Source: Nymphaea colorata (lineage: Eukaryota; Streptophyta; Magnoliopsida; Nymphaeales; Nymphaeaceae). From it: a stretch of DNA of 64,000 bases. The notes beneath the pieces were generated by a model, which ran no database searches, was not told the DNA's origin, and saw nothing but the letters and a program-made list of their open reading frames with translations. The position numbers and the translations under genes are program-made. Where the stretch lies: assembly GCF_008831285.2 (NCBI RefSeq), contig NW_022204507.1, positions 2,048,001-2,112,000 of the forward strand, given 5' to 3'. The first letter of the stretch is position 1. Every line of letters starts with the position of its first letter. Shown piece by piece: positions 9,911 to 46,690 of this stretch.

Positions 9911-10213
9911 CATTATGAGATATCCTTTGAACCTTCTTACCAACAATTGAGGACCATGTAATAGCCATTTAATTTCTTCTATCACTTTCTGATTAGATGG
10001 AAGTAACATTTGCATATGAAAATATAATAAATGTTTTTTTAAAAAAATAAGTTCAATAAAAAAGTATGGTAAGACGATATGATTATAAAGTTACATGTTT
10101 CGTAAACCAAACTTGAAATTGGATTTTATGTATGTTTTCAACTTCTACAATATTGACTTTTTATTTCTCTAATATTTTGTCTGTATCAACCATTAGAAAT
10201 ACAATAACATCTA

Positions 10214-11030: not shown

Positions 11031-11650
11031 CTTTATTTTTTTGACACTTTATAGAAAACAACTTTCTCACTTTGGTGCGTTGAGAAGTAAGCTGGAGTCA
11101 AATGTATTTTATCGTAGCCATCAACTTGCAGAAGGTGAAGGAATGGCTTATCGATATCAAGTCAGGGGTATAATGTGTCTTTTGATTACTCATCAATATT
11201 CAATAATGTACCGATTAAGTTATCACGTATGTTATTTTTGATGTGCAACACATCCATTGTGTCGCAATATGTTCCCGATAAGGCAATTGAAAGAGTGTAC
11301 TTTTTCTTCCTCTAATTATGATTGTATGAAAATCTTTTGTCTAAAGATAGTCTTAATATTTTCAACTTCATGTGGTACCTCAAACTAGAAAGAACAATAG
11401 GAGCATGCATCTCCTCAATAGTACCATCAAAAGAGCATGCATTTCAATGATGTCGATGTGATATATGCAGCCACCATTTATGCACAATAAACACTGCTTA
11501 TGGAGCCTATTTACGATAAAAACAAGTTTTCTTATAACAACAAGGACAAGCTAGGTAAAATTTAGTATTCCATCCTAACATATTTGCATACTCATGGAAA
11601 TCATTAATGGTCCATAATAGTGCTTCATGTAAGATGAATTTACCATCTTT
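11030..11650 (-). pseudogene. TNP2 (Transposase_21) remnant
   Basis: Reading down from about 11620 gives EYANMLGWNTKFYLACPCCY, then SFDGTIEE and VLHIKNNIRDNLIGTLLNI. These match the TNP2 landmarks of G-W-ST-+-ACP-C, FDG..E and NVCDNLIGTLLN. Stops and frameshifts are frequent and the N-terminal third is missing. Confidence 0.65.
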
Positions 11651-16920: not shown

Positions 16921-18592
16921 TTACGGGTGAAGATCATTTGAATGGACCTCCTTGAACAGATTAACATAAAAGCGAAGGCCCTCATGGCTGACATCTCGGC
17001 AAAGGAGACCTTCAAAATAAAGACACCTATAAGCAACCCCATAGCATACAGATAATAAAAAGCTGACTGGCATCGCAGTATAGGTAAATGTACAACCTCT
17101 ACTTTCAGCTGCAACAAGATGCTCCTTTGCCAATGCAGGAGCAATCCCTAATGTTCGTGCAGCATCACTTGCACTTATCCCCAATCGAAGGGCATCAGGT
17201 CTTACCACAAGGCTTTCAATTCTGGCAAAAACCTAAGTTGGACAGAATACGCAATGGTTGAGAGCTTTGAAAGGAAGAAAAAGTACCACAAAATTGGGAC
17301 AGCAAAAGGAAAACATATGGGATATAATAATCCATAAATAACTTCTTGCAGTAAAAAAGAATGACAATATTAAATGTGAAAAAGTTTACTCCAGCAACTT
17401 CTGCACCAAAAAAGATCTTCAAATAAACCCTTCACTAGAATTTTCGAAGTTAGTGCGAGGAGTACCTCCTCATCACTGTGCGTCTTGTTCTGTATGACCT
17501 TGACTCCACTGTCAAATTTTCTGAGCATTACAGGACTGCAAATAGGAAAAGACACAATAATAAGAACAAAACACATTGCCTCTCAGCATAAAATGTGTAC
17601 ATACTTGGATCCAAATAAGAACATGAAGTTCTTTATTGTCTCCTTTTCCACAGTAATTGCTAGACAAAATAGCAGCATAGGAACCTGAATGCGAGTTCAG
17701 GTAAGGTTCTGGTGTGCATACACATCATATTTCTCCCAAATCGCACAAGCTTGTAGCATGTCTTCTGGAGATATTAACTCTGCCAGGAGTGGCCGATTAG
17801 AATGGAGAAAAGACACCTAAGAAAAATGCTGTAGTAAACAAGTACCTGTTCCTCTAGCACGGTTAAAGAGACAATATGCATCTATCAACGCAACCATTCC
17901 TCCCGACCTCTCCAGATGCCCTTTGATAAAATCTGCCAACTGCAGAACAAAAAATTAAACATGAAAATAGATGGCATATTTGAACCAAATGTACACTGTG
18001 AGCAACATACATAATGGATCCTGCTGACGGCAGGGAGAGAAGAAGAATCAATAAAGACCAAGCAGTTAACATGACATGACATTGTAGCCACACGACAGCT
18101 ATCATTGGGGCTGTAAACAAATAAAAGGGAAACACAAGTGTAAACCTCATAGGTCCCACAGCAGTTTCATAAAGGCACTTTGAGCTCATATTTTAAGCCC
18201 ACCAAGCCTGCTTCTTTGAGATTTAAATGGGAACCCAAACGACATAACTCAGCCAAAAACATTCAGACTGCCCGAAAAAAGGTCTGAGAGTAGAAGAACA
18301 GTAAAATACAGGATCACATTATCCATATTTCAACTACGGAAAGAGGACAACACAACTTGAGGATGATCATTAGAATGACCTAAGAGAATACCTGACGAGA
18401 TAGTTGCTGATGATACAGAGCACCAGCTGTTTCTTTCGTAACAGGAGACACAATTCCAACGCTTAGAAGCCAATCTTGCATGTCCTGCTTCGAACCCATT
18501 TCTTCGTCGGTTGATGCATTGGTAGCAGATGGACCTGCTAAAAGCTTTACTCTCATTTTCTCAGCGAGCAAGACCATCTCTTTAGCTTTACC
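16921..18592 (-). CDS. VPS36: VPS36 exons 2-7: helical region and winged-helix domains
   Basis: Exon 2 (67 codons) opens after GCATTCAG with GGTAAAGCT in phase 0, exactly matching the phase of exon 1. The remaining exons give [20 protein letters not shown], then [37 protein letters not shown] and [20 protein letters not shown]. The last coding segment is [18 protein letters not shown] plus ten residues to TAA at 16923-16921. Introns are 452, 66, 186, 233 and 87 bp. There is no ATG-led 5' end here, so this is not a separate gene. Confidence 0.92.
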
Positions 18593-21500
18593 CTGAATGC
18601 ACAATAGTTTTCAGCCACAAAATGGAAACAGCTCCCAGTTATTACACTTTTTATAAGGTGGAAAAAGAATAATAAATGCACAACCAGCAACAAGATTTTA
18701 CCACCATTTTGTTGTAAATCAGAAAATTTTCGAAAGTATAATTATATAACAAAGCCAATTATTGGGGCAGGTTGTACATCAGTGTATGACAATAACCTAG
18801 TGGATTTACAAAATGCATATTTTACAAGTATTACCCATCCCAATGCTTGATACTAGCATGACCTAGTTCAACCTAAATAAAGCTAAAAACTAAAGAATTC
18901 CGTCCCAAAACACCAATACCTTTCTAACCTTATTTCTGTAAAATGAAATCATGATTTTGATTTTTTTAAGTTTTTTTTTTTTTTTAATGTATATAATTGG
19001 AACTAGTCCAATGGCTAGTTCTCTCTAGGCTTCCCCTTCTTCTCTTGTATAAAAATCTCACTATTCATTGTACAAAGAAGGCTGTTATGAACAGCAGTTT
19101 TCTAGTAATTGACTAAAGGATCCTTATTCTCCCACTTGGCCTTGGTGCCTATTTTCTGCTTAGTGACTGTTGAAGTCACATTTTCATGGTATCATAGCCC
19201 TGTTGGGCTGATTCTTCATAGGATTTCTAAAGTTGGGTTGCTGCTTCTATTTCTGAAGACTGAATCATCAGACTTCTACCTCTTCGTCGCTATCATTCTC
19301 ACGTTGCGCACCACCTGTATGTGAAATCTTCTCAAAGACTGCCTGCTTCTAAGTTAAGTTATCTTCTATTCCTTTCTGCTGCACCTCTGAGAAAGGATAT
19401 TCATCCTAAACAGCACCTCAACATTCAGCTGTTTTGATCTTGGTTTACTGCTGCACTCCAAAGTATACATCCAATTCTAGGCAGAATATGGTCTGAAGCT
19501 ATTCTAGCCTCAGTTTTTGAAACTGATTTCTCTAAATGTGAAGAAATCAGCTAATCATCATCCACCAACTGTTCGGTGAAACGTCCAAAGTATTACTTAG
19601 TCCTCTATAGCAGCTTTCATGGAGGATTCCAAAATTTCGATCGAAGGAGGGAGCTTTCATGCTTCATACAAGCTCGATGGAACTAACTATACGTTATGGG
19701 CTAAAGTTTGGAAATACACATCAAAGGAAAATGCTTATGGAGCTTCATAAGGGGTATGTCCATTCCTCCTTCTCTCAAGTTAGCTAAACTAGAAAATGAG
19801 ATTGAGAAAGAATTGGATAAAGTAGAAAGACAAAATGCTATTAATGAATATTATAAGAAACTAAATGAGGGAAATCAAGAACTGAAGAATTAAAGAATGG
19901 ATTTATGAAAGCATCGAACCTATAATTGCCCAAAACCTCATGTACTATGAGAGGGCAAGTGAGGTATGAGAATACCTCAAAGGAATGTTTACCCAAAAAG
20001 ACATGGTCCGGAAGTATCTATTGATTTAAAAACTCAAAATATCAAACGAGGAGAGAAAAATGTAAGAGATTACTTTATGAAAATCTCTAGTGTTTGGAAT
20101 GAGTTAGATCAACTTAGCCCTAAACTAGAAAAGGTTTGCAAATGTCACGCGATTAGAAGAGATAAAGTTGATGAATTTAGATTTTTTTAATTTTCTTCAA
20201 GGGCTAAGACCCGAATTTGGACAAATAAGATCAGACCTATTGTCCTTGACTTCTTCTCCACTTATTCATGAACTTCTTACCCAATTAAGTGGAGAAGAGA
20301 CTAGAATGAATTTATCCAAAGAAGAAATGAATAGTATTTTCATTTCCAAACAAGAAGACAAAGTTATAGCCGCTTCTAAACCTGAAAACAACATTAGAAC
20401 TTATAGACCCCCTCATTTTAAAAATCAAAATAAAGGAAGGTTTGTCATTTTTTTCATGAACTGGGTCACATAAGACCTAATTGCCCAAAATTGAAGGGGA
20501 ACAACAATGAAGGACGATCACAAAATTATGGAGGAAATTTTCATAGAGGAGGCTTACATTCTCAAGGTGGGCAACCCTAGAGAATTTGATCAAGCTCTCA
20601 AGAAAGTTGCAAATATTCAAAATGAAGGATGTGATCTTGCGTCAATCTCCTCAATGTTGAACCAAATTATGACGGCTCTTCAACCTATGATAAAGGAGTC
20701 AAATTTCGGAGTTCTAGCAACAACGACATCCACCTCCAACACTTCTGGTATGGTCCCTTGGCTTTTAGATTCTGGTGCTTCATTTCATATGACACCTAAT
20801 ATATCCTTTTTGACCAAGTATGAACAAGCAAAAAAGGAATCAAATGTATTTACCGCCGATGGAATGACTTTGAATGTTCAATGAGTTGAAAATTTTGAAA
20901 AAGAATTTGGAGAAAAACAAAAATTCTTCATACCAAAAGTTAGTTATGTTCCTAAACTTAATCTTAACTTACTTTTTGTCTCTCAAATTTCAAGTCATTG
21001 TTTTGATATAGTTTTTCTCACCAAGTAAATATTTTGTGTAGGATCACCAAACCGATAGACTGATTGGAGTAGGTTTTAGAAAGGGAGATCTTCACTACAT
21101 GAACAATTTATTTATTCCCAAAGAAAACTTTTGTAACCACGTCAAAAATGTTGACATCAATGTTTGGCATCAAATATTAGAGCATCCAAACATTAAAAAA
21201 TTATCTTTGATGACTTTTACCAAGGATTTTTGTATTGAGAATTTTAAATGTAATAATTATATACATAGGAAAATGAAATCCTTATCTTCTGGACAAAGAA
21301 GTTTCTTTACTTCTATGCGCTTTGAGCTTGTTCATTCAAAAATTTGCACAACTTGGCACAATTTGATGCTAAATTAAAAATCCTAAGAACCGATTCCAGA
21401 GGTGAATATATTTCAAATGAATTTAAAAGTTATTTGAAAAACTATGGAATAGTTCATCAAAAATCACTCAACAAAATGGACTTTTTGAAAGAAAACATAG

Positions 21501-24500
21501 ACACATGGTACAAACAACAAGAACCTTACTTATTGGGAAAAATATACCTACAAACTTTTGGGCTGCAGCCCTTGCCTCGGTTTATCTCATAAATAGAATG
21601 CCTTCAAAAGTTTTAAAGAATACGACTCCTTTTGAAAAATTATTTAAATGTGAGCTTGATTTCAATCGACTTTGAATTTTTGGATACAAATATTATGCTT
21701 TAAATGACAAGACTTACAATCTGAGTTCACAAAGGTTATTGAACCTTTATTGATTATCTGAGAAACAAAAAGGCTATAAATGCTATGACCCAATCAAAGA
21801 CAAAATCATAGTTTCAAGAAATATAAAATTTAATGAAGAAAATGGATTTGAAAAATGTAGAGAACCACAAAACAACAATGATTATTCTTTTCTATTCAAG
21901 TATCTCTCCCAACTTGATGATGAAATGTATGATGATATTGACGATAGTAATATTAATGATAGAAATGATGATGGAGTATCCAAAGACATAATTACATATC
22001 ATAGAAGAAACTGGCAACAAAACATAGGTGAAGAAGAACACCATGAAACTCTTGATCTTCAATTCCACAAGAATTTACTTCAAATGAAGAAAATCTGAGA
22101 AGAAGGCAACCCAATAGGTTTGTGTCATTTGAAACATTAACCCCAACATATAGAGCTAGAATCATTGCCATTCACTCTCACTTTAAAGTTTAAACCATCT
22201 ACATTTAGTGAAGCCTCAAATTATATTAAGTAGAAGAATGCTATGTTACAAGAATTAAATGCCTTGAGGAAAGCTCAAACATGGGAAATACAAGATTTAC
22301 CTATAAGAAAAAATACAATTAGATGCAAATGAGTATAAAAAGTAAAAACAAAAAGTGATGGATCTTTAGAAAGATAAAAAGTTAGGCTTGTTGCTAAGGG
22401 ATATACTCAAGAATATGAAATTGACTATGAAGAGACATTTGTTCATGTAGCTAGAATGACTACTGTTAGGACTCTTATTGCATTAGCATCTATTAGAAAC
22501 TGGAACAATTATCAAATGAATGTTAAAAATGCATTCTTAAATGGAGATCTTACAGAAGAAGTTTACATGGATGCACCACGAGGTTTGCGACTTCCACAAG
22601 GAAAAGTTTGAAGACTTAAGAAGGCTCTATATGGTATCAAACAAGCCCCTAAAGCTTGGTTTGATTGATTTAACTCTGTTATCTCTAACTATGGATTCCA
22701 TTCATGTTTGATTGACACTGTCTTGTTTGTCAAGAATACTACTGCAGGTATCATAATCCTCCTACTATATGTTGATGACATGATCATTACAAGTAGAGAC
22801 AAAGAAGGAATTAAAAAATGTAAGAACCTACTATAAAAAAAAACATTGAAATGAAAGATTTGGGTTTCCCAACGTACTTTTTGAGAATTGAGGTTACATA
22901 TTCCACTAGAGGCTATTTTTTATCACAAACTAAGTTTACTGTAGATATTATTGTTAAGTCAGGTATAACATATGATAAAATTACGGAAACTCCTAAAGCA
23001 ATAGGAAGCAAAATGAAGATTAATGATGGAGTTCCTCTTACAAATCCTACTCCTTACCGATAGCTTGTGGGATCTTTAATGTATCTCAGCATCACCTGCC
23101 CCGATATTGCTCATGTGGTTCATACAGTAAATCAATTTCAACATGCTCCGTCAACCGTTCATAAGAGAGTTATTCTTCCCATCATTAGATACATCAAAGG
23201 GACAATAAATAAGAGAGTATTTATGGCTTCTTCTTCCTCTCTAAACTTAATTGTTTATACTGATGCTGATTGGGGAGGAGATCCAAATGACAAAAGCTCA
23301 ACCACTTGATTTTGCATTTTTTTAGGGGAATCACTCATCCCATGGAAGTGCAAAAAGCAACATAATATTTCTCTTTCTTCTAACGAAGCTGAATATTGAG
23401 CCATGGCCTCCACTATAAGATTTTGAGTATCGAACTATAACCCACGATTAGTTTCAGCAAAGGAAAGGTTAAGAGAGAACAAGAAAAAGAAATGAGGAAG
23501 GGAGGTGAGTGCTTAGAGTCTCACGCAACCCATTTATATAATGATCCTTCTACACAATTTACAAGAATCCAGAATGAAGCAATCACAATAATCTAGAGTC
23601 TAGAATGAAGCAAACACAATAATCTAGAGTCTCGAATGAAACAATTACAAAAATTACAATCATGACCCTACCTAGATAAATGTGATCAGATATAGTTAGA
23701 CATGGTGCCAAACCATATACAACTTGAGGGAGGATGATAAGATGTTAGATATGGATGAGACTAGATCCAACATCTTATCATCCTCCCTCAAGTTGTACAT
23801 GGTTTTGCACCATGTACAACTTGCTTTTTAGAAATTAAAATCGTTGATTTGTTAGTCTTTTTGTAAATAAGTCTGCGACTTGTTCATCTGTACGAACATA
23901 AATAGGCTGAATCTCCTTGTCTTCCACTTTTTGTTTAATAAAATGTTGATCAATCTCAATGTGCTTTGTTCGACCATGTTGTATGGGAATAAAATCAATG
24001 TTAATAGCGCTTTGATTATCGCACATTAACATTGATATTTTAATCTTTTCTCCAATGTCCTCTAGCAAATGTCTAACCATGTAACTTCAACAGTACCGCA
24101 GCCATACATCTGTATTCAGCTTCAGTGCTGAATCTTGCCATTGTTTTTTGCTTTCGACAACTCCAAAGACACAAGGTTACGTCCAATGAAAATACAAAAA
24201 CTAGAAATAGACTTTCTTTGATCGGGATCTCAGCCCAATCTGCATCTATGAATGCCATAAGTTGATGTCCAACAGTTATATTTCCACTCTTACCATAAGC
24301 TAAGGCATCTCCTGTTGTCCCTTTTAGATATCTTAATATTCTTTTGATAGAATCCATGTGAGTATCTCTAGATGCATGCATAAATTGAGATACTTGATTC
24401 ACAGCATAAATATTATTTGGTCTAGTGAATGGAAGATATTGGAGTGCCCCAGCAATGCTTTGATATTGTGTAGAATCTTCATATAACTTCTCGTCCTGAG

Positions 24501-27500
24501 CACTTAGTCTTTGATTCCAACATGCTTACAATTAGACATACCTGTCTTTCCAATAGATCCAACGTGTATTTTTGTTGTGTCAATGTGAGACGATCATTGT
24601 GCCTATCAATCTCCACTCCAAGAAAGATTCGTAAATCACCAAGCATTGTTGTGTTCTAGCTCATCCCCTGTTTCTAAATCAATGGTCAGGCATCTTACGC
24701 CGGAGCAGATCAAGGAGAAGCGCCGAAAGGGAGTTTGTTTCCATTGCGACAAACCCTAGGCGCTTGGGCACACATGCGGATGACTTCATATGTATTTGGT
24801 CGAACAAGGGGATGCAATGGAAGATGAAGAAGAAACGCTATAGGAGGAAGAGGCAAACAGGAAAACGACGCTAGATGGATCGCCTGAGATCTTCTGGCAT
24901 GCCTTGATGGGGGATGAGGTGCCTCAATTAATGAGGGTAGAGGGGCGACTGTGTGGGCAAACAATGAATGTGCTGGTGGATATGGGATCCATCCATAAAC
25001 TTCATCTCTGAGAAATCAACGAAGCTGCTGGGCTGAGTGGTATAGAGACAACCAGCATTCGATGTGGTGGTAGGAGATGGAAGCACGCTGAAGTGTAGTA
25101 AAGAAATACTGAAAATTCAAGGACACAGGTTTACCGTAACCCTCTTCACATTGGCGATGGCTGGAGCAGACCTGGTGTTGGGTATATACTGGCTACGAGG
25201 TCTAGGAGAGGTGGTCTAGGACTTTATTGGGATGAAAATTCACTTCAAGAAGAGGGAACAAGGACCATTTACATTACAGGCTAAGGCCAAGAATCCAGTG
25301 GTTGAGGAATCTGCACTCAAGATTATGAAGTAGTCAGCAGCTTCATTCTTGTTAATGAAGGCAATCGAGTCGGATAGGAGAACCGGAGAGGAGTGGCTTC
25401 ACAGAGCGAAAATCAACCCTTCAAGGCTGCAGAAATTGATACACGATTACATGGAGATCTTCGCTGCTCCTACTGGCCTGCCTCCCCCCCGTGCGAGTGA
25501 CCACGTATCATCTTGCAGCAAGGCATTGAAGCAATCAGGTTGAAACCACATTGCTACAGCCGAACACAATGACAAGCACTGGAAGAATTAGTGCAGGAGA
25601 TGTTGGAGCAGGGTATCATTCAACCTAGCCATAGCTCATTTGCCTCACTCACCTCGTTGGTTCAGAAAAAAGGATGGAAACTGGTGGTTCTGCATTGGAT
25701 TACCATGCCCTAAATGCAGTACCGATCAAAGACAGGTTTCCAATCCCTATTATCATCGATCTCTTGGACGAACTGCATGGAGCTGCTAATTTTTCAAGAC
25801 TGGATTTACGCACGCAGACTGTCATCAAATCAGGGTAGCTCCGGATGATGTCCCAAAAACAGCCTGCCATACTAATGATGGACACTATGAATTCAGGGTC
25901 ATGCCCTTTGGCCTGACCAACGCACCAGCAACTTTTCAATCAATCATGAATGACATATTCCCCCCTCCCCCCCCCCCCCCCACCCCACTCCTACGCAGGT
26001 ATGTGTTAGTATTTTTTTTTTTTTGACGACATACTCATATATAGCAGGAATGAAGAGGACCATGTAGAACATCTAAAGAGGTTGCTGTCTCTACTGCACC
26101 AGCATCAACTCAGGGAAAAGTTGTCTAACTGTTCATTCAGGGCAACATAATAGCCTACTTGGGGCATATGATTAGTTGCAGGCAGGTGAGAATGGAGGAG
26201 AAGATTTCAAAGGTGAGAGATAGGAGGACTTCTACAACTGTTTGAGAGTTGAGGACCTTTTTAGGACTTGCTGGATACTACAAGTTCGTGAAGGGGTATT
26301 GGATGCCAGCGGCACCCCTAACAGCACTGACAAAGAGAGGAAAATTCCTATGGACACGGCAAGCCGAAGATGCCTTCACTGCAATAAAAGGGGCAGTAAC
26401 GTCTGCGCCAGTCCTCATGATGCCAAAATTTTCAAGCGCCATTCATCGTGGAATCTGATGCATTAGACATGGGGGTGGGCGCTGTTCTCAATCAGGATCA
26501 GAACCCCATCGCGTTTTTCAGCAAGGCCATGGGGGTAGCATTCACCGCAAGGTCAGCATATGAGAGCGAATTGATAGCCATCGTGTTGGCTAGTACCAAG
26601 TGGAAACATTTTCTGATGGGCAGACGCTTTACTGTTCTTACTGACCATAGTAACCTGAGATATTGTTTACAGCAACAGAATTTATCAGCTACCTGCAGAA
26701 GTGGGTCTTGAAGCTCATGGGATTCGATTTCGAGATACAATACCAAAGAGGAAAGGAGAATTCAGCAGCAGATGGCCTGTCCCGGGCTGCCACTGCTACT
26801 GCCACTTACACTACCACTACCACAGCCATGCCAACGTCTGCCCTCTTAACGTTGTCTCATATTCAAGTCGAGCTGTGGAACCAGATTCGACAAAGCCACC
26901 AAAATGCCCAATCAGTGCAAGAGATTAGGGAATGTTTGAGGAATGATCCCCTAAGGTGCTATGGGTATATCATTGGGAGGACCCCTACCTGTATTTCCAA
27001 TGACGTATCTTCATTCCACCTGAGATGGAGCTACTGCAGGTGCTTATGACCCATTATCATAATTCCAAGGTGGCAGGGCACGACGGGGTGGAGGGAACCT
27101 ACCGAAGAATGCAAGACACCTTTCTGGCCAGGCCTGAAGAAAAATATTCAGGACTTCATTAAAAACTGTGATACATGCCAGCGCAATAAGTATGAAACCA
27201 TGAGACCAGCCGGCTTCCTGCAGCCTCTGCCCATACCGGAGATGGTGTGGGAAAATATTTCCATGGACTTCGTCGAAGGTCTGCCATCCTCCCATGGAAA
27301 ATCAGTCATTCTAGTAGTTGTAGATAGACTGTCGAAATATGCCCATTTCATTGCTTTTGCTCACCCTTTCAGCCAAATCTATTGCTAAAACATTCCAAGA
27401 CAGCATGGGCAGACTCCATGAAATGCCCAGGTCCATAACCAGTGGCCAAGATCCTTTATTTCTGAACACCTTCTGGAAGGAGTACTTCCAATTGCAAGGA

Positions 27501-36500: not shown

Positions 36501-39500
36501 CGCTTGTTCATTCAATTTCATGCCTTGGTTCGAAATAAATACTCCAGTGATATTGTGCATTTTCAATGTGATGGTGGTGGTGAATTTATTTCAAACGAAT
36601 TTACTGAGTACTTACTAAATCATGGGATCACTAGACAAATCTCATGCCCGCATACACCTCAGCAAAACGGAATTGTTGAAAGGAAACATAGGCATATCGT
36701 TGAAAGTGTGCTCAACATGATGCATGACACAGATTTACCTATGACGTTGTGGACCGAGGCTTTTCATACGGCTGTCCATGTTATAAACCGACTGCCATTG
36801 GCTTTGCTTGATGGAAAATCACCATTCTTTCTATTACATCAATCACCATTCTTTCTATTACATCAAGAACAGCCAGATTATGAGGAATTGTGTGTTTTTG
36901 GATGTGTGTGCTACGTGCATATTGATGTTTCCTTAAGGACCAAATTTCAAGATCGTGCTGTTTTATGCAGATTTATGGGGTATGCAGAAAATTACAAGGG
37001 CTATAGATGTTACAATCCTAAAACTGGGCGTGTGCATATTTCACGGCATGTTGTTTTTTATGAAAGCAGGTTATAGGATCCAAAGGCGTCTTCTGTGACA
37101 CTCAATGACAAAAATGAGGTATATGATACTTTGTTACATGCTGAAATTTTAAGACAAGGAATGGAAATGTTGCCTGAGCAGAGAGAGCAAGTTGTTGATG
37201 AGCCCGAAAAATTTGTCAGTAGTTCCTTGGACAGCACCACTTTCTTGGACAACCTGCCTTCATCCTCTCAGCCCAATGATCCACCTATAGATAACCGCTT
37301 CTCAGGCCTAGTGTATTCTCGGCGGTCAGTCCCTACTGCACCTCCACGTAAGTCACAACGCGTACGACATCCTATTGATAGATGGGTGAGCTATAACAAA
37401 TTTTCCTTGGATTTTCAATTTTTTATGACAGAAGTCAGCAAAAAGGTGGAACCAAAATGTTATCAACATGCGAGTAAGGAAAAATGTTGGGTTGAAGCTA
37501 TGAATGAGGAAATGGCAGCCTTGAATGAGTGTCAGACTTGGCAGATTGTTCCTCATCCAGATGGTAAGAATGTTGTGGGCTCCAAATGGGTTTACAAACT
37601 GAAATATAAGCCTGATGGTAGCATAGATCGATATAAAGCTCGCCTTGTGACGCGAGGCTTCACTCAGCAATACGGGGAAGATTATGATGAAACATTCAGT
37701 CCGGTCATCAAGATGGGAACGATCCGCGTAATTATTTCTCTTGCAGTCTCATATGGATGGACTCTCTATCAGTTGGATGTCAAAAATGCCTTCCTTCCTA
37801 GGATTCTAAAGGAAGAAGTATACATGGAGCAACCTCCCGGCTATGCTACACATGATCCTCAAAAATGGGTATGTAAGTTACACAAGTCTCTATATGGGTT
37901 GAAGCAGGCTTCTAGGTCATGGTTCGATCGGTTTTCTCATCATATACAACAAGTTGGTTTTCTTCGAAGCTCTCTCGATCACTCTTTATTTATCTACCAT
38001 ACCGGGGAAGCTACCACTTGGTTACTTATCTATGTTGATGATATTGTTATTACTGGAAATTCTACTTCACATATATCTTATGTTAAAGATATGTTGAAGC
38101 AAGAATTCAAGATGAAGGATCTCAGCGAATTACGATACTTCTTGGGTGTTGAACTTGACAGGACAGATGATAGATTGACTCTTACGCAGCACAAGTATAC
38201 TCTTGATATTTTGAACAGGGCAGGCATGATTAATTGCAAACCCATAACCACTCGTAGTGTTCTCAACACTAAATTAACTGCCTCTGATGGAACTGCTGCA
38301 TATCCCAATCCTACATTCTATCGCAACATTGTTGGTACGTTACAATACCTCACTTTTACACGCCCAGACATAGTATATGTTGTAAATCAGATCTCTCAAT
38401 TTATGCATGCACCCATGGAAGGACATATGGATGCCACTAAGCGAATCTTACGGTATCTCAAAGCTACTCTTGGAGATGGACTAGTCTACTCAAGAGGCCC
38501 CAATGTTACGCTTGGACATTGCATTTATACCTATACCGATGCAGACTGGGCAGGAGATCCCGATGATCGACGATCAGTTTCAGGTTTCTGTCTTTTTCTT
38601 GATTCTAATCTCATTTGTTGGAGCAGTAAGAAGCAGCGCGCAGTTGCTCGATCAAGCACTGAGGCAGAATATAGAGTAATGGCTGCTGGGACAGCTGAAG
38701 CATCATGGTTACGCCATTTGCTTGGAGAACTCAGCCTTCCTATTGTTCAGTCATCCTTACTATGTGACAACCAAAGTGCGATAAAAATTGTCTTCAACCC
38801 CGTTCTACATAATCGCACCAAACACATAGAGATTGATCAACACTTCATCCGTCAGAAGGTTGAAGAAGCCGAGATCTTGCCTACTTATGTACCCACCAGT
38901 GAACAAGTAGCTGACCTCTTCATCAAAGGACTCACAGGACAACACTTTTGGGAATTGAAGAACAAGTTAAGCATGATCAAATCTCATGCACAACTTGAGG
39001 GGGGCTGTTAAGTTTGTGCGCCTAGGATCGGGTCTGTCCAGACCCGATCCAATTCTTTTATATTCACACGCCCAAATATACTAGGTGGTGGCATACTTGT
39101 AATTTTTTACATATTTTTGTACAAACTGTTGTAATCTGATTAGGTTATCTTAATATAACAGTGATTAAGCCATTAAGGATTGCAGGGCGTCTCTAACGCC
39201 AACTGCACCTTCTCTTCCATCAGCTTCTACCTTCTCTACTCAATCACTCTTGTTTCAGGCCGGAGAGACACAAATTTCTAGAAAATCTTACACTTATTTG
39301 TTGGAATAGTAGGAAACAACATGCAGTTGCCAGATCCAGCATTGAGGCAAAATATAGGGCAATGGCTGCAGGCACAACTGAAGCCTCATGGTTATGTCAT
39401 CTGCTTGGGAAACTCTCCCTTTTCATTGCTCAGTCATCTTTATTCTGTGACAACCAAAGTGCGATCCAGATTGTTTTCAATCATGTTCTACATAATTGTA

Positions 39501-42500
39501 CTAAGCATATAGAGATTGATCAACACTTCATTCATCAAAAGGTCGAGGAATACGAGATTGTTCCTACTTATATAGCCACATCTCAACAAGTAGCTGATCT
39601 TTTTACCAAGGGGCTCATAGGGTGGACTTCGAACTTGTATTCTAGCAGTTTGAGGACTCATTTCTGTTGGGTGGGGTTCAGCACCTTTTGCAGCACGCAG
39701 CAACGCAAACTACTATGGTCAGTGTGCATCAAAAATTTGCTCTCTAGGAAGTAACGTCTCTACTTTTGAACAGCCATGATTAAGCAATTAACTCCCTTTC
39801 ATATGCTAACTTACCCTCAAAATTTTTGCCCATCACTTTGCTGAAATATGCTATTGGATGTTTGTCTTGGGTTAGAACTGCCCCCACATCCAAATCTGAT
39901 GCATCGGTCTCTAGGGGCCTTCATTATAGCTTCTTTCAGTTGGAACAAGGCTCTCAGCCTATCCCCACTCCATTCCCATATATTTCTCTTAATCATATAA
40001 GTTAAGGGAGCAGCTATTCTCCCAAAATCCTTCACAAACCTACAGTGATATCCAGCCAGTCCTAAGAAGGCTCTCATCCCTTTAAGGTTGGATGAAGGTT
40101 GTCAATACGTTATGGCAGCTACCTTATCACTCTCCATACATGCTACTGGCCAGTAATCGCACGGCCCAAATAGGTGACATGGGTCATACCAAAGGAGCAT
40201 TTGGATGCTTTAGCTTGGAGTTTGTGGAGTCTTAGTACCAGCACACTTCTAACATGATCTGTCATTTCTACCGTAAATGAGTATATCATCAAAGAACACC
40301 AAAACATACTTGTGCAAGCAAGGTAAGGCCTGAAATGTAGCAGGAGCATTAGTAAGGGCAAAAGCCATTACTCTAAATTCGTAAAGGCCCTCATGAGTCT
40401 GAAATGTTGTCTTTGGGGCATCATTGTGCGGAATCGGGTGCAACGTTGACCGCAACGGGTACGATCAACGTACCCCGGGTCATTTTTTACCATTTTCAGA
40501 CTCAGTCAACTTTGACCGAGTCCAAAATTGTTTGGTTTTGAATTTTAACGTTTTTTACAATTTTCACATTAAAATTATCGAAACCCTTAAACGATGATGG
40601 TTCTTCTTCGTCTTCACCCTTCACCGACAGACTCACTAAAACAGAAGAACGGCGAATGGCGAGCGGCGATGGCAAGCAGCGACAGCAAGCAGAGACGGCA
40701 GGCCGCGAACGTTGTTTTCTTCATTTTTAATCGAGCTCCGTTCTTGTAGAGTGTTAGAGAAGGAAGAAGAAGAAGAAGTTTTGGGTCGTACTGAGTTTTG
40801 GATTTTGTGGGGTCGATCAAAGGCGATTCTCTGCTAACGTTCTTGTTATTGTCGCTTTTGGTGAGTGATGTGGAGCTTCTCTTTGTTCTCGTTTTCTCGT
40901 TTTGGTGACATGAAAAAGTAGAAACAGAGTATAAGCTTTTTTTTGCATGCCGCTGTTCATTTTTCTTTCGTCCTTTTTTCTTTCGTCCTGGCTTTCTCAT
41001 GAGATATTGTTGCATGCATTGGTAATCTGTCTTTGTTACCATGATGGTTTTTCTCCTTGATTCTACATTTTTTGTTTTTGGTTTTTCTTTGATATTGATG
41101 AGTCTGCAAGTAACCATTCTCTCTCTCTCGCCGTTCCCTTTTAGGATATATTTTGGTTTAATTTGTGGTTCAGATGATACATTGGATTCCTTTTAGTGTT
41201 TTGATCCAGCTGGTTTTTAGTTTTATCTTTTCATTTTCGTTTTCCTTTCCTCGTTTAATTTCCTTTTCGAGTTCGGTGTTCTAATTGTTATTTGCTCTAT
41301 ATAGTTGGAACAAAATAAGCCAGAGAAAAGGGCGATTCTGGTTGTTTTGTTCAGTCCAAATCGCCCCAATGATTTTATTTGTAACAAATTTGTGATTCTT
41401 ATGATATGCAATTGTCACCCTACAATTTCGTCTGCGTTTCTATACTTTTCTTCTACTATGATGTTCTTTTGTACTCTTGTCTTTGTGGTTCTTATGTTGT
41501 TTTGGATTCATTTGTATCTTTAACTGCCAGGCTTTTCAGTTATCGCCTTATCGGTTACAGTTTTTTGCTTTTCAGATATAAATTGTAATGGCTGATAAAG
41601 GAACATAAAAGATGCCTACAAGTGGAAATGGAAATATGGCAAGCAGTAGTAGTAGTGTTAATACCGTTGCATTAGAAATGGATAATAATCCATCTCAGCC
41701 TCTTTGGCGTTGTGTAAAAAAACTAGGAAAAGCACCAGGTGGCGGTGGGAATATAATTTTTTCTTGCAATTTCTGTCATAATACGTTCACTGGCTCTTAT
41801 ACACGTTGCAAGGCACATTTATTGCATATCAAAGGCAATGGAAATTAGACCATGCGAAAAAGTTAGCAAAGAATCGATGAAGGTATTCAAAAAAGAACAA
41901 GATGCAGCTGAGATGAAAAAATCTTCAACCAAGTCAAGTGAACTATCTGTTCCTCTTCATGCAATTGAAGAAGGTGAAGATGCTTCAAAGAAAAGAAAAA
42001 CAAACATGGCGATTGGAGCTACCAAAACATTAGCACAAGCATTCAAAAATATGGGAAGTGTAGAGATGGATAGAAGGATCGGAAGGTTCTTTTTTGCAAG
42101 TTCACTTGCTTTTAATGTAGCCAAAAGTCCTTATTGGAAAGATGTTATAGGTTTGGATAATTGCAGTTTGGTTGGTTATGTACCCCCGAGTCAGAGAAGT
42201 TGAGAACAGTAATTCTTGCAGAAGAGAAGGCAAACATCAAAAAATTATTAGAGAAGAAGAAATTTTCATGGACACAATATGGAGTATCTATTGTTTCTAA
42301 CCGGTGGACTGATATACAAAGACGGCCACTGATAAATTTTATTGCTTATTCGCTTAATGGACCAATCTTCTTGAAATGTGATGATGCATCTAGGGAGTAT
42401 AAAGATGTTGAGTATTTAAAAGGGCTATTTATAGAAGTCATCAAAGAAGTGGGTGAAGATAATGTTATGCAAATTATTACTCATAATGTTCCACTTTGCC

Positions 42501-45500
42501 AATGAGCAGGGATGAATTTGGCAAGTGATCCAAGTATAATCACATATTCTGGACTCATTGTGTGGCACACAGTATAAATCTAGCACTTAAAAGTATTAGC
42601 AACCCATCAAAAGATGATACAAACACTGTTAAATTGTGTTCATGGATTGAGGAGCTTGAGCATAATGTCAAAAACATCAGAAATTTTGTTGTAAATCACA
42701 ACAATGCTCTTGCTATATTTAATAGGCATTCTGATTTGAAATTGCTGAAGGTAGCAGAGACTCGTTTTGCATCCATTATTGTAATGATGAAAAACAAAGC
42801 AGGTGAAACATGCATTAACACTTACGGTGACTGACAATGATTGGGAGTTTTATCGGAGTGATGACATTGTGAAGACTCAAGAAATTAAAAAATGTATTTT
42901 AGATGATGAATGGTGGGATAAGATTACATATTTTCTGCAGTTTACAGAGCCTATGTGGTAGATACTGAGAGAAGTTGATAAAGAAGGGTCCATGCTTCAT
43001 AGAGTTTATGATATGTGGGATAATATGATCGAAAAAATTCAAAACATTATTTTTAGACATGAGAAGAAGAATGTTGCACTTGATGATTCTGAGTTTTTCG
43101 ATCATGTGTATAAAATTTCAGTAAGAAGATGGAATAGAAGCAATAACCCTTTGCATTGTATGGCACACTCTTAAATCCCAAATATTATGGGCAAACATGG
43201 TTGGCAGGAAGTACTGGTCGTGTTCCTCTTAATCGAGATCCAAAAATATCAAACAATAGGGAGATATGTTTGGAAAAACTATTTTTTTATTCTCGTCGAT
43301 TGAAGATAATAAATAATGAGTTTGCGAGCTTCTCTGGTGGAAGAAGTGATTCAATACAAACTACAATGGCAAGAGAAGAAGAAGATCCTGTTAATTGGTG
43401 GTTATGTTTTGGAGCATCGACACCAAATCTCCAACAACTTGCATTGAAGTTATTATCTCAACCTGCAACCTCTTCATGTTGTGAAAGAAATTGGAGCACT
43501 TATTCTCAAATTCACAACATCAAGAGAAATAAGCAAACTAGTAAGCGAGCAGAAGATTTAGTTTATGTCCACTCCAACCTACGCTTACTTTCATGTACTT
43601 CAAATGATTACAGGTATTTCTTCATTCCGATGGTAGAAGAATTATTGGACAAATTGAAAGGCACAAACATATTTTCAAAACTGGATTTAAGGGCAGAGTA
43701 TCATCAAATTAGGATATTTCCTAAAGACATTCTACATACAGCATTTCAAACTCATGAAGGCTTTATAAATTTAATGTTATACGATTTGGACAACTGGACT
43801 AACTAATGTACCCGCAACCCTTAAAGTATTGATGGATTATGTATTCTGCCAATCTGCCCATATTTGTGTAAGTTTGTCTTAGTATCCTTTGATGATATAC
43901 TAGTTTATAGTGCAGACATGGACAAGCAATTGGAGCAGTTGACTAAAGTGCTCAGCGTGTTGATGGAACACAAAATGCATGCCAAGACTTCAAAATGTTT
44001 GTTTGGGAGCACTCAGATTATTTATCTTGGCCATGCAATCTCTGGCAAAGAGGTTCACATGGACTAGGACAGAATTATATCATCAAGGAATGGCAATTAC
44101 CCAAAGGAATAAAAGGATTAAGGGCTTTGCTTGGACTCGTATGGTATTACCGAAGATTTCTAAAGAATTTCAGAAAGATAAATGCACCCCTAACTATTAT
44201 CTAGTGGGGAGAATATTTCAAATTCATACATATCATAACAGCCTACGACACTACATACAACAGAAGAACCTCAATCCAATCTGGCAGAAATAGATGATAA
44301 GGTTGCTTGGCAATTATTTTGAGATCCTTTATAGGAAAGGCTCGGATAACTTAGTGGCAGACGGCTGCCAAGGCAGATTGAACAGGACCAAGGAGGAAGT
44401 TAGCTCAGATTTCATTCAACACACTAATTCTTCCAACTTTAGACCTTTGAAGCAGAACTGGCAAAGCACATCAGCATGCACTTTCAGTTCGAGAAATAAG
44501 GAAAAAGCTGGAATCCACATCAGTGCAGATGTATGGATACAGGTGGTGAGCAGTATATTATCAGTTATCAAAAATGCATTCATCAAGGAGGCAGGCCCAG
44601 AGGAAATACAAAGTATAAACTACATACCAAAGGATTAAACACACCCTCTGTGGGCCCAGGATGAGAAGAGAAGGGAGTATGTGCAACAATGCACCATTTG
44701 TTAGAGGCATAAATATGAAACTCTTAAACCTGCCAGCCTCCTCCAGCCACTACCAATTCAAACACATATTTGGGAGGACCTATCAATAGATTTCATTGAC
44801 GGCCTCCCCAGGTCCAAAGGGAAATCATCCTAGTGCTTGTTGATCGACTTTTGAAGTATGTGCATTTTATGGTTCTTGCCATCCCTTAGTAACAAAGGAA
44901 GTGGCTAAGGCTTTTCAGGAGAACAACGAAAGTTGCATGGAATAAGTCAATAGTAAGTGATAGGGACACCTTTTCTTGAGCAAAATTTGGCAACGATATT
45001 TTTCATTGCACGGTACTAAACTCAACATGAGCACAGCCTACACCAACCGACCGATGGACAGACCGAAGGGTCCTAGAAACCTATCTAAGGTGCTACACGA
45101 AGATGCAATTGGATTGATTTTCTGTCTTAGGCTAGTTTCACTTATAGCTCAGCTCCACGTTCAGCTACCAAGATGTGTCTGTTCAAGACCATCTATGGTC
45201 GACCTCGACTAGATCAGCGTTGCTTTTAGCCTCATACTAGGCATGGGTTTACTCTTGCCTAGAAGGCATTAATTTAATCCAGTAGCTGACGTACTGCACC
45301 TTCATCATAAGCGAGACAATGAAGGAAAACAACTGCGTTGTAGTCCTTACATGTGACGATTTTATATGACGACTAAAATATAGGGCTAAGAAGTAGGAAT
45401 ACCTATTACATCAACAACACGTAACCAATCCACCGACATGCAGCACAAAGGAAAAGCGACCCAAGGTAAAAGGAAAACCTTGTATCGGCTACAAACTGAA

Positions 45501-46210
45501 GAACTTTTTCTTATGGATGGGTACAAAGTGAAGATTAATAACGATAGAAACAACGATAAAATAGAGACGAGTATTTCTGTTACCATGAGCGCATTGAGAT
45601 CTTGAAACGCTTCCTGCAAGCTCCGGTCCGTGCTCTCCCATAGTTCCTGCTCCTTCCGGAGAATTCCCGAGACCCCGACAACAGATGCGCGGCTTCCTAC
45701 TGAGCCCTCGCCCGAGCTAGCAGACGCCCTTCCCGACGAACCCGAGCCCTCACCATCTCTCTTGCTTTCCCAAGTCCTAGACCTCAGAATCTCCCAAAAC
45801 CGGGTCAAAAACGCATCATGATCCATCTTGCCCCTCATAACCACGTAAATCACCACCGATCGCTTTCCCTTCTCCTCGATCGACCCGTCATCCGAGGCAC
45901 ATAGCTGGATTCCGAGCCTCGGGCTGCGGAACATCTTCTTGATAGATTTCTTCGGCTGATGGACATGAACGACAGCTGATAGAGGGATCGCAGAACCCGA
46001 GGTGTAGCGACGATCTTCGCCGATCCAGATGAGCCTCAGCGTGGTGAGGATGAGCACGCCGGCCCGCAGTGTGGAGAAACCAGGAATCTCGTCGGTTTCA
46101 ATGTCCACAGAGTCGAGGGTGGAGCACTCGACCTCCCCGGGTTGCAACACCGGCAGCCCGCTACTCGTCAACGGCACCGGTGGCAAAGGCTCTGGCCGTC
46201 TTCCGTCCAT
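16921..46210 (-). CDS. VPS36: VPS36, ESCRT-II subunit, with a 27-kb first intron
   Basis: VPS36 is an ESCRT-II subunit that sorts ubiquitinated cargo into multivesicular bodies on endosomes. Seven exons (46210-45584, 18592-18392, 17939-17846, 17779-17722, 17535-17466, 17232-17097, 17009-16921) join to 1275 bp and 424 aa, close to the about 440 aa of Arabidopsis VPS36. The protein has an N-terminal GLUE domain (about 15-145), a Ser/Gly-rich linker (about 150-180), and a helical region with [19 protein letters not shown] running into [13 protein letters not shown]. Two winged-helix domains follow, including [15 protein letters not shown] and [19 protein letters not shown]. All seven donors and acceptors are GT-AG and phases agree at every joint. 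The start is ATG 46210; an upstream in-frame TTG at 46240 is not a plausible start. No exon is broken. Introns 2-6 are 66-452 bp; intron 1 is 26,991 bp of nested transposons. Confidence 0.9.
18988..23413 (+). mobile_element. Copia-1: degenerate Ty1/copia element with 5' LTR
   Basis: A probable 5' LTR (about 18988-19186, TATA-like TATAAAAATC near 19048) is followed by a primer-binding site, then gag, protease, integrase, RT and RNase H in copia order. Landmarks are [11 protein letters not shown] (19674), [14 protein letters not shown] (20757), [17 protein letters not shown] (22525), LYVDDMIIT (22767) and [17 protein letters not shown] (23258). Stops and frameshifts occur throughout. RNase H breaks off after EAEY-stop-AMAST, where the minus-strand copia LTR begins. 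The 3' LTR is missing. Confidence 0.85.
19187..19200 (+). other. Primer-binding site of copia-1
   Basis: TGGTATCATAGCCC follows directly after a CA-ending LTR (...ATTTTCA). It differs from the usual TGGTATCAGAGC by one base. Confidence 0.7.
23420..24660 (-). mobile_element. Copia fragment with 3' LTR (RT end, RNase H, LTR)
   Basis: From 24655 down, the frame gives [20 protein letters not shown] (the end of RT). RNase H pieces follow, including [20 protein letters not shown] and [24 protein letters not shown] and [12 protein letters not shown]. The polypurine tract CTTGAGGGAGG precedes a probable LTR starting TGATAAGATG at 23780. The LTR carries a TATATAAATGGG box (minus strand, near 23540) and short TTCTAGACTCTAGATTATTG repeats. 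It abuts the truncated RNase H of copia-1 near 23413-23420, so it probably inserted there. Its 5' two-thirds are missing. Confidence 0.8.
23701..23814. repeat. Near-perfect 50-bp inverted repeat, 14-bp loop
   Basis: Arms 23701-23750 and 23765-23814 pair with three mismatches. Both arms contain ACAACTTGAGGGAGGATGAT, the polypurine tract and start of a copia LTR, facing each other. A smaller hairpin (CAAGTTGTACATGG / CCATGTACAACTTG) sits within the right side at 23789-23823. Confidence 0.85.
24683..28130 (+). mobile_element. Gypsy-A: decayed Ty3/gypsy element
   Basis: In gypsy order: a CCHC knuckle remnant (GVCFHCDKP, near 24736), protease (VLVDMGSIH, near 24971), RT ([19 protein letters not shown], near 25575; [18 protein letters not shown], near 26025) and RNase H ([19 protein letters not shown], near 26444). 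Integrase follows ([15 protein letters not shown], near 27080, to [16 protein letters not shown], near 27660). A polypurine tract (AGAGGGGAATG, 28007-28017) and an LTR start TGATACACC (28018) end it. Frameshifts and stops are frequent, and poly-C (25963-25981) and poly-T (26012-26024) expansions disrupt RT. The 5' LTR and most of gag are missing, and the 3' LTR is short or truncated. Confidence 0.85.
28080..28350. repeat. AT-core repeat with GGGCC-rich flanks
   Basis: GACCCAGGTTGGCCCAACG lies on one side and CCCGGCCCGACTC / CCGGCCCGATGCCC on the other, around an AT-rich core. It is similar in style to 1-185 and 49330-49460. Probably a dispersed non-autonomous repeat at the end of gypsy-A. Confidence 0.4.
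28570..28810 (+). pseudogene. ycf2: Plastid ycf2-like fragment (NUPT)
   Basis: The open frame contains [17 protein letters not shown] followed by [16 protein letters not shown] recognise the second motif as the stretch of chloroplast ycf2 just before its acidic EFEEGEGEG segment. After KYES the sequence leaves ycf2, and the beginning ([11 protein letters not shown]) is not clearly ycf2 either, so only about 150-200 bp can be assigned. A short nuclear plastid insertion inside VPS36 intron 1 is the likely reading. The identification rests on remembered ycf2 sequence. Confidence 0.6.
28811..29944. other. Intron segment with no recognised element
   Basis: AT-rich sequence with a repeated word around GACAGAATGCATAGC (29322-29376). 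A moderately GC-rich stretch at 29460-29650 has an open frame on the plus strand but no recognisable family. Poly-A and poly-T runs follow to 29940. No gene supported. Confidence 0.35.
29945..30226 (-). mobile_element. Gypsy-B, downstream part: integrase zinc-binding region
   Basis: The minus strand reads [20 protein letters not shown], then [20 protein letters not shown] and WEGISLDFI: the gypsy HHCC integrase domain and the start of the catalytic core. It stops near 29960. Its upstream part lies on the far side of the copia nest at 39632-40432, so the copia insertion split this element. Confidence 0.8.
30227..30512 (+). repeat. 5' LTR of copia-outer
   Basis: It begins TGTTAAGGTTG and ends ATCTTACA immediately before the primer-binding site: 286 bp. 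It is related to but clearly diverged from the copia-inner LTRs (shared GGTGGCATAC and LTR-end words). An imperfect palindrome sits at 30246-30271 where copia-inner has a perfect one. Confidence 0.85.
30513..30524 (+). other. Primer-binding site of copia-outer
   Basis: TGGTATCAGAGC is the standard copia site complementary to initiator tRNA-Met, directly after the LTR. Confidence 0.9.
30561..30732 (+). repeat. 86-bp tandem repeat in copia-outer leader, CCCTAA-rich
   Basis: Two copies (from about 30561 and 30647) each carry GCCCTAACCCTAAAATC, GACCTAACCCTAAAATCC and TTGATCTCTGCCCTA. The words resemble the plant telomere unit CCCTAAA but are interspersed with other sequence. Confidence 0.8.
31134..32577 (+). 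pseudogene. Copia-outer gag-protease-integrase, broken
   Basis: The plus strand gives a gag segment ([19 protein letters not shown]), a CCHC knuckle, a frame change, and an open frame 31777-32577. That frame holds protease ([13 protein letters not shown]), the GAG-pre-integrase region ([14 protein letters not shown]) and the integrase CxxC ([14 protein letters not shown]). The core start [15 protein letters not shown] retains the first catalytic Asp. A stop after FMKIK ends the frame. Confidence 0.8.
34100..34377 (+). repeat. 5' LTR of copia-inner
   Basis: Starts TGTGAAGTTTG and ends TCTTGCA just before the primer-binding site. It contains a perfect 12-bp-stem palindrome at 34119-34144. It lacks the 8-bp CCATTAAG insertion seen in the 3' copy. 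Confidence 0.95.
34378..34389 (+). other. Primer-binding site of copia-inner
   Basis: TGGTATCAGAGA matches the copia initiator tRNA-Met site with a final C-to-A change, directly after the LTR end. Confidence 0.9.
34669..35375 (+). pseudogene. Copia-inner gag, two frameshifts
   Basis: Gag would start at ATG 34669 ([10 protein letters not shown]). It loses frame within about 20 codons and is recovered from about 34740-34850, where [20 protein letters not shown] and [19 protein letters not shown] follow. It loses frame again near 35180 (EIKK) and continues in the 35232 frame ([16 protein letters not shown]). Gag forms the virus-like particle. Two frame breaks mean the element cannot make full-length gag. 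Confidence 0.8.
35232..37076 (+). pseudogene. Copia-inner gag end, protease and integrase
   Basis: A 614-codon open frame ends in TAG 37074-37076. In order it has the gag tail, a zinc knuckle [14 protein letters not shown] (last Cys replaced by Arg), protease [15 protein letters not shown], the pre-integrase region [13 protein letters not shown] and [14 protein letters not shown]. The integrase core has [10 protein letters not shown], where the family has Asp, then [14 protein letters not shown] and [13 protein letters not shown] 21-bp local duplication gives a repeated SPFFLLHQ near 36826-36866. The C-terminal words [14 protein letters not shown] are typical of copia integrases. Confidence 0.88.
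37095..39011 (+). pseudogene. Copia-inner reverse transcriptase and RNase H
   Basis: An open frame of 638 codons continues pol after the TAG. RT landmarks are [60 protein letters not shown] and [12 protein letters not shown] (catalytic YVDD intact). RNase H landmarks are [36 protein letters not shown] and [17 protein letters not shown]. No internal stop is present. It would be one polyprotein with 35232-37076 if the TAG were absent. Confidence 0.92.
39006..39292 (+). repeat. 3' LTR of copia-inner
   Basis: Starts TGTTAAGTTTG after the polypurine tract and ends ATCTTACA before the CTTAT duplication. It is 287 bp and shares the perfect palindrome at 39025-39050. Confidence 0.95.
39632..40432 (-). 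mobile_element. Gypsy-B, upstream part: RT and RNase H
   Basis: From 40432 down the minus strand reads [20 protein letters not shown], then [25 protein letters not shown] and [28 protein letters not shown] and finally the RNase H words [12 protein letters not shown] and LLEYKFEVH. This continues logically into the integrase at 30226-29945. Stops and frameshifts are present. It ends abruptly at 40432, where unrelated sequence leading to the hAT remnant begins. Confidence 0.8.
40433..43605 (+). mobile_element. Decayed hAT transposon
   Basis: A non-coding 5' portion (40433-41587) precedes a transposase with BED finger, DUF659 region and hAT dimerisation domain, all broken by frameshifts. Terminal inverted repeats and 8-bp target duplication could not be identified. 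Its left end abuts truncated gypsy-B and its right end runs into gypsy-C, so both termini are probably lost. Confidence 0.75.
41588..43605 (+). pseudogene. hAT transposase (BED, DUF659, dimerisation), frameshifted
   Basis: ATG 41588 is followed after six codons by TAA. The frame then gives [19 protein letters not shown] and [20 protein letters not shown] (a BED zinc finger). Frame changes fall near 41840 and 42190. The DUF659 region contains [19 protein letters not shown] and [15 protein letters not shown] further change brings [17 protein letters not shown] near 42550 and [17 protein letters not shown] near 42750. The C-terminal dimerisation domain has [29 protein letters not shown] and NLRLLS. 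With four or more disruptions it cannot encode an active transposase. Confidence 0.82.
43612..45230 (+). mobile_element. Gypsy-C: decayed RT to integrase fragment
   Basis: It starts within RT ([36 protein letters not shown]), then [20 protein letters not shown] and [20 protein letters not shown]. RNase H follows ([20 protein letters not shown], near 44300), then integrase ([11 protein letters not shown], near 44715; [21 protein letters not shown], near 44980). Many stops. It runs opposite to gypsy-B, so it is a different insertion. Both LTRs are absent. Confidence 0.8.
45584..46210 (-). CDS. VPS36: VPS36 exon 1: GLUE domain and linker
   Basis: This 627-bp exon encodes residues 1-209 and ends at GCGCTCATG|GTAACA in phase 0. 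It contains [13 protein letters not shown], then [17 protein letters not shown] and [18 protein letters not shown], all typical of the lipid- and ubiquitin-binding GLUE fold. It is GC-rich, unlike the intron. The next exon to match, starting GKAKEMVLL, is 27 kb away, and joining the two restores the conserved ALM-x-KAKEM sequence. Confidence 0.9.
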
Positions 46211-46690
46211 TAATAAAAACAATTGCCGGAATTGACCCAATGCGGCGGAAAGAACGGCTAGACGAAGCGGTTGCTTTATCGCAACGTAGAATCTAACTTA
46301 ACAACGAAGCAGGACGAAAGAGGAAGGAAGAAGAAGAAGAAGAAGACGCAGTCAACCCCAACTGCAGCCCTCTGGTCGGAGAGAGAGAGGGTGTCCGCAA
46401 TCGAGTGAGAGGGAGGGAGATCAATAGGAAGGCCGGCAGCGGGGACAATGAGAAAGTGACAAGCGGAGGAGCGAGAGGGAAGGGTTGGCACTTGGCAGAA
46501 AGAGATGAAAGGGTGAAGAGGCCGCGGACTGAATGGGCGCGCAACCAGCCGGACCTCCGACGGCCCCGCACCAAGCCGAGTTCGGATGATGGATCAGACC
46601 CAAAGGCCCAAAGAGATGGGCCTGGCCCCAGATAAAATTTTCACTTGGGTCGGGCGGGAGGTCATTAGGGCAAGGTATGACGTCATCTTT

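Follow-up and report, generated by a model that had tools for sequence, protein, structure and literature searches.

Long, transposon-filled introns located near promoters are already well documented in plants. Of 37,866 gene models in rice, 4,227 are reported to contain heterochromatic introns. These introns are longer than others and concentrate close to promoters, and genes that carry them, some of which depend on OsIBM2, lose downstream transcript via premature polyadenylation when OsIBM2 is reduced or mutated (PMC7145194). In Arabidopsis, the proteins IBM2 and EDM2 probably keep proximal poly(A) sites within intragenic transposons from being used (PMC10241880). The Chloranthus genome report describes long introns as owing their length mainly, it appears, to LTR elements, with expression dropping only above 40 kb (PMC8626473).

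Here we describe a VPS36 gene in Nymphaea colorata whose first intron fits this picture and calls for no new mechanism. The heterochromatic-intron genes of rice likewise carry a long, transposon-bearing, promoter-proximal intron in a normal gene, and for the rice genes both heterochromatin and OsIBM2 effects have been measured (PMC7145194). For Chloranthus spicatus and magnoliids, orthologous genes are described as lengthened by intronic LTR retrotransposons, and the long-intron genes are expressed; one example is a TFIID subunit gene of another plant, whereas the present case concerns VPS36 (PMC8626473). Organelle-derived DNA is also found in a read-through intron, intron 7 of Arabidopsis IBM1, as it is in VPS36 intron 1. 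However, heterochromatin in IBM1 is described as being caused by the insert, whereas the plastid pieces in VPS36 (177 and 103 bp) form a minor part of the intron (PMC7145194).

Arabidopsis has one VPS36, reported to be required both for the embryo to develop and for the seedling to survive (PMC12051064). Nymphaea resembles it in that one complete copy was found, and differs in the size of the first intron. In the library searched, one literature search found no earlier report of the intron described here, and only a paper on retrotransposon integration in fission yeast surfaced. Based on the analyses below, we consider it very probable that the locus is one functional gene for the ESCRT-II subunit VPS36, the sole complete one found, in which transposons have stretched intron 1 and exon 1 is joined to exon 2.

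Structure and Identity of the Nymphaea VPS36 Gene

The gene occupies 29.3 kb on the minus strand of the window, which is the whole 64-kb stretch of DNA analyzed (G000:C15:2048001-2112000). Splicing its seven exons in silico (Table 1) yields 1,275 nucleotides that run from ATG to TAA and encode 424 amino acids with no internal stops. GT-AG ends are present in all six introns. Introns 2 through 6 measure 452, 66, 186, 233, and 87 bp, and the junction between exons 1 and 2 lies in phase 0, where the protein reads ALM|GKAKEM. The initial annotation had given these exon coordinates, the phase match, the continuity of ALM with GKAKEM, and an upper limit of 452 bp for introns 2 through 6, all of which were reproduced exactly on rejoining the exons. 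Its description of all seven exons as intact also holds for the open frame and the splice dinucleotides.

Table 1. Coordinates of the VPS36 exons and of the sequences that make up intron 1, numbered from the first nucleotide of the window
Feature	Position	Strand	Remarks
VPS36 exon 7	16921..17009	-	89 nt, TAA at end
VPS36 exon 6	17097..17232	-	136 nt
VPS36 exon 5	17466..17535	-	70 nt
VPS36 exon 4	17722..17779	-	58 nt
VPS36 exon 3	17846..17939	-	94 nt
VPS36 exon 2	18392..18592	-	201 nt
VPS36 intron 1	18593..45583	-	26,991 bp, GT-AG
3' remnant of original intron	18593..18960	-	no repeat matches
Copia C1 plus flanking repeat, antisense to VPS36	18997..23654	+	Pol_BBD, RVT_2; limits approximate
Copia fragment C2 (RT-RNase H end), sense to VPS36	23761..24643	-	64% to element B, inverted
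Unclassified repeat stretch	24644..25763	.	at least 49 matches including self; best other 86%, contig C12
Gypsy part G1 (RT, RNase H, integrase)	25764..27807	+	RVT_1, RT_RNaseH, Integrase_H2C2
Largely repetitive stretch with two plastid-derived pieces	27850..29900	.	at least 96 matches including self
Plastid-derived piece 1	28448..28624	+	97.7% to C783:66978-67154, 4 mismatches in 177
Plastid-derived piece 2	28768..28870	-	93.3% to C783:48121-48017, 103 bp
Gypsy integrase fragment G2	29908..30165	-	self-comparison, Pfam
Older copia A, first part (interrupted by B)	30226..34099	+	Pfam, self-comparison
Copia B	34100..39292	+	LTRs 34100-34377 and 39006-39292; CTTAT target duplication both sides
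Copia A, second part	39293..39621	+	self-comparison
Gypsy fragment G3	39629..40464	-	DNA similarity, frames
hAT-type DNA transposon, coding remains	41609..43608	+	Dimer_Tnp_hAT in 43147-43806; DUF659 under cut-off
Gypsy fragment G4	43609..45209	+	self-comparison, frames
5' remnant of original intron	45210..45583	-	limit is end of last gypsy frame
VPS36 exon 1	45584..46210	-	627 nt; ATG, GLUE-type domain, EAP30 positions 1-32

Pfam searches of the joined protein identify a GLUE-type domain (Vps36_ESCRT-II, PF11605) at residues 15-103 (8.6e-11; 42.3 bits versus a cut-off of 24.1) and an EAP30 domain (PF04157) at residues 178-401 (6.5e-54; 183.4 bits), the latter covering profile positions 1-218 of 219. 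With a GLUE-type and a full-length EAP30 domain both present, the predicted protein is a member of the VPS36 family of ESCRT-II subunits. When the parts are searched by themselves, exon 1 matches EAP30 profile positions 1-32 (E = 0.0042), although its 17.3 bits fall short of the 26.8 set as cut-off for the family. Exons 2-7 match positions 34-218 (2.1e-43). Because the first match ends at position 32 and the second begins at 34, the two halves represent complementary, adjoining parts of one EAP30 domain. Judged from these profile coordinates, such adjacency is more than chance, and it is not expected of two unrelated fragments.

The closest solved chain is that of human VPS36, or EAP45 (2zme_B; 4.1e-53), which aligns over residues 174-415 of the Nymphaea protein with zero gap at the exon 1/2 junction (residues 209/210). 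In addition, the frame upstream of exon 2 is closed by a stop that lies seven codons from the splice site, with no ATG between, and thus the only start available within exons 2-7 themselves is an internal methionine (codon 6 of exon 2). The initial annotation had favored one gene over two, and this view is borne out, as far as sequence comparison can tell, by the complementarity of the EAP30 matches, the gap-free human alignment, the intact frame and splice sites, and the result that no second complete VPS36 was found.

Transposons Make Up Most of Intron 1

Nine elements or fragments were placed in intron 1 by self-comparison, Pfam, and genome searches (C1, C2, G1, G2, A in two parts, B, G3, hAT, and G4), in agreement with an initial count of at least eight transposon pieces. 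The placed copia, gypsy, and hAT sequence comes to 20,710 of 26,991 bp (77%). Eighteen intron frames were scanned with Pfam and 11 of these matched, all to transposon-type families, with the match to DUF659 in one frame and those to Usp-48 in two lying under their cut-offs. Pieces that carry RVT_1, RNase H, and Integrase_H2C2 are presumably gypsy elements and are labeled as such. C2, G3, and most of G4 lack Pfam matches of their own and were placed by DNA similarity and frame reading, where C2 and G3 are 60-65% similar to other intron pieces. Pfam found no match in the C2 frame at 24073-24525, in the one G3 frame scanned (39820-40101), or in the hAT-region frame at 41757-42203.

The ends of the hAT element were sought by scanning for paired termini. 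The best pair (7 of 8 duplication letters and 12 of 14 inverted-repeat letters) was rejected; its right end, at 43779, falls inside gypsy fragment G4. Beside the hAT remains lies an unexplained 192-amino acid open frame on the VPS36 strand (40617-41192, minus), which is among the seven scanned frames without a Pfam match.

Both ends of the intron are free of repeat matches over roughly 370 bp. A genome search with window positions 45200-45600 returned a single match, to itself. The corresponding search with positions 18593-19950 gave at least 72 matches, of which one is the query itself, two start at query positions 369 and 378, and the other 69 start at 404 or beyond (window 18996). In the largely repetitive stretch at 27850-29900, repeat matches leave about query positions 226-513 and 776-1016 uncovered. 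All such match counts are lower bounds, and a region without matches is not thereby proven to be rare. If an originally short intron had been opened up by insertions, one would expect this arrangement, in which repeats fill the middle and the short ends are non-repetitive.

Measured by length, the placed elements comprise 18.7 kb antisense to VPS36 and 2.0 kb in the sense orientation, the latter only fragments. This excess agrees with selection against sense elements, since poly(A) signals in these would truncate the transcript, a pattern for which nine pieces are too few to provide a test. Intron 1 contains 91 frames of at least 70 amino acids, among which no nested host gene was identified by scanning 18 with Pfam and reading the rest by eye. 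Searches for tRNA genes and Rfam families each returned zero matches, and TTNGATYTG, which we take to be an intron-enhancer motif, has no hit in the first 1,500 bp of the intron.

The two plastid-derived pieces match contig C783, which we take to be the plastid genome from its length of 159,842 bp and from frames in it that resemble petA and cemA. This contig holds 47.5 kb of N, and more plastid pieces could therefore stay hidden. The two pieces lie near each other in intron 1, and their sources are about 19 kb apart in C783. Perhaps the pair is a mosaic insert that served as filler in the repair of a break.

Nested Copia Elements and the Age of an Insertion

Copia B is nested in copia A, which continues in register beyond it. 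The insertion of B came after that of A. Element B has a primer site and a polypurine tract, and its coding sequence is interrupted and split over several frames. Comparison of its two LTRs at 278 sites shows 8 transitions and 2 transversions, along with 2 indels (K2P 0.037). At substitution rates of 4e-9 to 1.3e-8 per site per year, B is calculated to have inserted 4.6 to 1.4 million years ago. The LTR family is dispersed in the genome: 40 places were scored of 389 candidates, including the two LTRs of B, and the others are 78-93% identical. Over about 1,065 aligned codons, element A carries 5 stops together with 3 frame changes, of which one coincides with a deletion of ~205 residues.

VPS36-Like Sequences Elsewhere in the Genome

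The VPS36 protein was compared with the entire assembly (407.8 Mb in 783 contigs) and gave 10 matches at E<=10. Seven are its own exons, two overlap at one place on contig C8, and one is on contig C529. The Pfam GLUE model has two matches in the assembly, of which only the VPS36 locus is over the cut-off, and EAP30 has four matches over the cut-off (two on contig C4, one on C529, and one at the VPS36 locus). Together, the protein search and the GLUE and EAP30 searches found no second complete VPS36 in this assembly, which may be incomplete and from which a diverged copy could escape detection, given that the GLUE model has limited sensitivity and missed a C8 relic that the protein search caught. 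The initial annotation had raised an intact VPS36 elsewhere as a reading that would make this locus a broken copy; what the assembly search produced is this relic, a decayed form of exon 1 only.

The relic (G000:C8:7814024-7814457) has 80% DNA identity to exon 1 over 440 bp (window 45748-46187), ends within the exon, and carries stops and frame changes. Except for short chance-level matches, no further VPS36 exons were found in C8:7784001-7824000. The C529 match is 30% identical and contains an in-frame TAG. Similarly, a search for VPS25 found a gene on contig C12 and also a sequence on C34 (18652-19062) with 3 TAG and 2 TAA in frame. These features suggest that C529 and C34 are likely contamination from another eukaryote, perhaps a ciliate, in which stop codons have been reassigned.

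As a subunit of ESCRT-II, VPS36 characteristically binds VPS22, VPS25, PI3P, and ubiquitin. Genes for partner proteins are also present, namely VPS25 on C12 and a further EAP30 gene on C4. The pair of EAP30 matches on C4 has zero VPS36 tblastn matches at E<=10, and by exclusion we take this putative gene to be VPS22.

Indications That VPS36 Is Maintained by Selection

Decay was simulated as if selection had been lost at the insertion of B. Without indels, 0.30 of the runs still have an intact frame and intact splice dinucleotides, which is not significant; the fraction is 0.061 or 0.029 when indels are set at 0.10 or 0.15 of the substitution rate, ratios that are assumptions of the simulation. 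The lesion load of element A, scaled to 425 codons, corresponds to about 3 expected lesions versus 0 in VPS36, where some of the A lesions may predate the insertion of A. Relative to the C8 relic, exon 1 differs at 24/144, 18/142, and 36/144 sites in codon positions 1, 2, and 3, respectively, and this third-position excess gives a chi-square of 6.5 (2 df; p about 0.04; hand calculation). The same comparison includes 6 gap events, 4 of which are not multiples of three.

These decay and codon-position tests provide moderate support for a functional VPS36. The stronger argument is that the searches turned up no other complete VPS36, together with the status of VPS36 in Arabidopsis as a single, essential gene.

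Interpretation and Alternative Explanations

We propose that an ordinary first intron grew to 27 kb through successive transposon insertions and the addition of some plastid DNA. Most likely, the entire 29.3 kb is read by RNA polymerase II, and exons 1 and 2 are linked by the spliceosome at the original intron ends that appear to survive as short non-repetitive stretches. The transposons of intron 1 would be silenced. What the sequence shows directly is the gene structure, the intact frame, the splice consensus, the continuity of the domain, the nested insertions, and the failure to find a second complete copy, whereas transcription, splicing, silencing of the transposons, and function are inferred.

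One alternative is that the insertions broke the gene, parting a GLUE-only half from a winged-helix half such that neither yields VPS36. The halves are indeed separated by 27 kb of mostly transposon sequence, yet both are intact after an insertion dated by its LTRs, exon 1 ends in a donor site, and exons 2-7 lack an in-frame ATG between the upstream stop and exon 2. Polyadenylation signals of the transposons could stop transcription, and intron 1 contains 21 copies of AATAAA on the sense strand; however, the antisense strand has a similar number (17). Although the simulation without indels gives a 0.30 chance of intactness with no selection since the insertion of B, a broken gene must also be reconciled with the failure to find a complete second copy of a gene that is essential in Arabidopsis. 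We regard this explanation as very unlikely.

A functional VPS36 might also employ intron 1 as a switch, wherein silencing shuts intronic polyadenylation sites and weakened silencing yields a short GLUE-only protein instead of VPS36, lowering the dose of ESCRT-II. This speculation seems very unlikely as well. The hypothetical product would have 209 residues plus a 65-residue tail (window 45386-45583, minus), and the hydrophobic character of the first part of this tail is probably to be expected from T-rich intron DNA. No AATAAA is present within the initial 2 kb of intron 1, and support for such a switch is accordingly weak.

It is quite improbable that the assembly process joined the two halves artificially across a repeat-rich gap. 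The interval is rich in repeats and such joins do occur in scaffolds of genomes of this kind, but the window contains no N, B sits inside A with a matching target duplication and with A in register on the far side, and both intron ends are proper splice sites in one phase. Least probable of all is a fission into two genes whose GLUE-only and EAP30-only proteins assemble in trans: exon 1 does have a frame that stays open into the intron to 45386, adding 65 residues (ORF 45386-46297), and exon 2 does offer an internal ATG at codon 6, but the break would fall inside the EAP30 domain, after position 32, and splice sites have been kept on both sides.

Significance and Additional Features of the Locus

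A single functional VPS36 gene at this locus would leave the general view of such introns unchanged. It would nevertheless provide a clean case, in that a gene present once and indispensable in Arabidopsis retains its frame and splice sites over 27 kb of nested transposons that include a datable insertion. The locus also serves as a warning that gene models here may be split, and it is plausible, as the initial annotation expected, that automated annotation would divide VPS36 into two truncated genes. Greater interest would attach to a regulatory role of intron 1 or to a dependence on IBM2 and EDM2, if either were true.

IBM2 combines a BAH domain with an RRM domain. The Nymphaea assembly has 15 BAH-domain matches, 14 of which are over the cut-off. 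VPS36 could be a useful test locus for whether the read-through of transposon-filled introns, and the IBM2/EDM2 system, extend to the Nymphaea lineage.

Two further features of the window lie outside of the gene. Long similar stretches are located on either side of VPS36 (9284-11154 and 51541-53358), with 74-76% identity and the same orientation. In addition, a 264-bp unit is present at 54022-54550 in two tandem copies with 97% matches.
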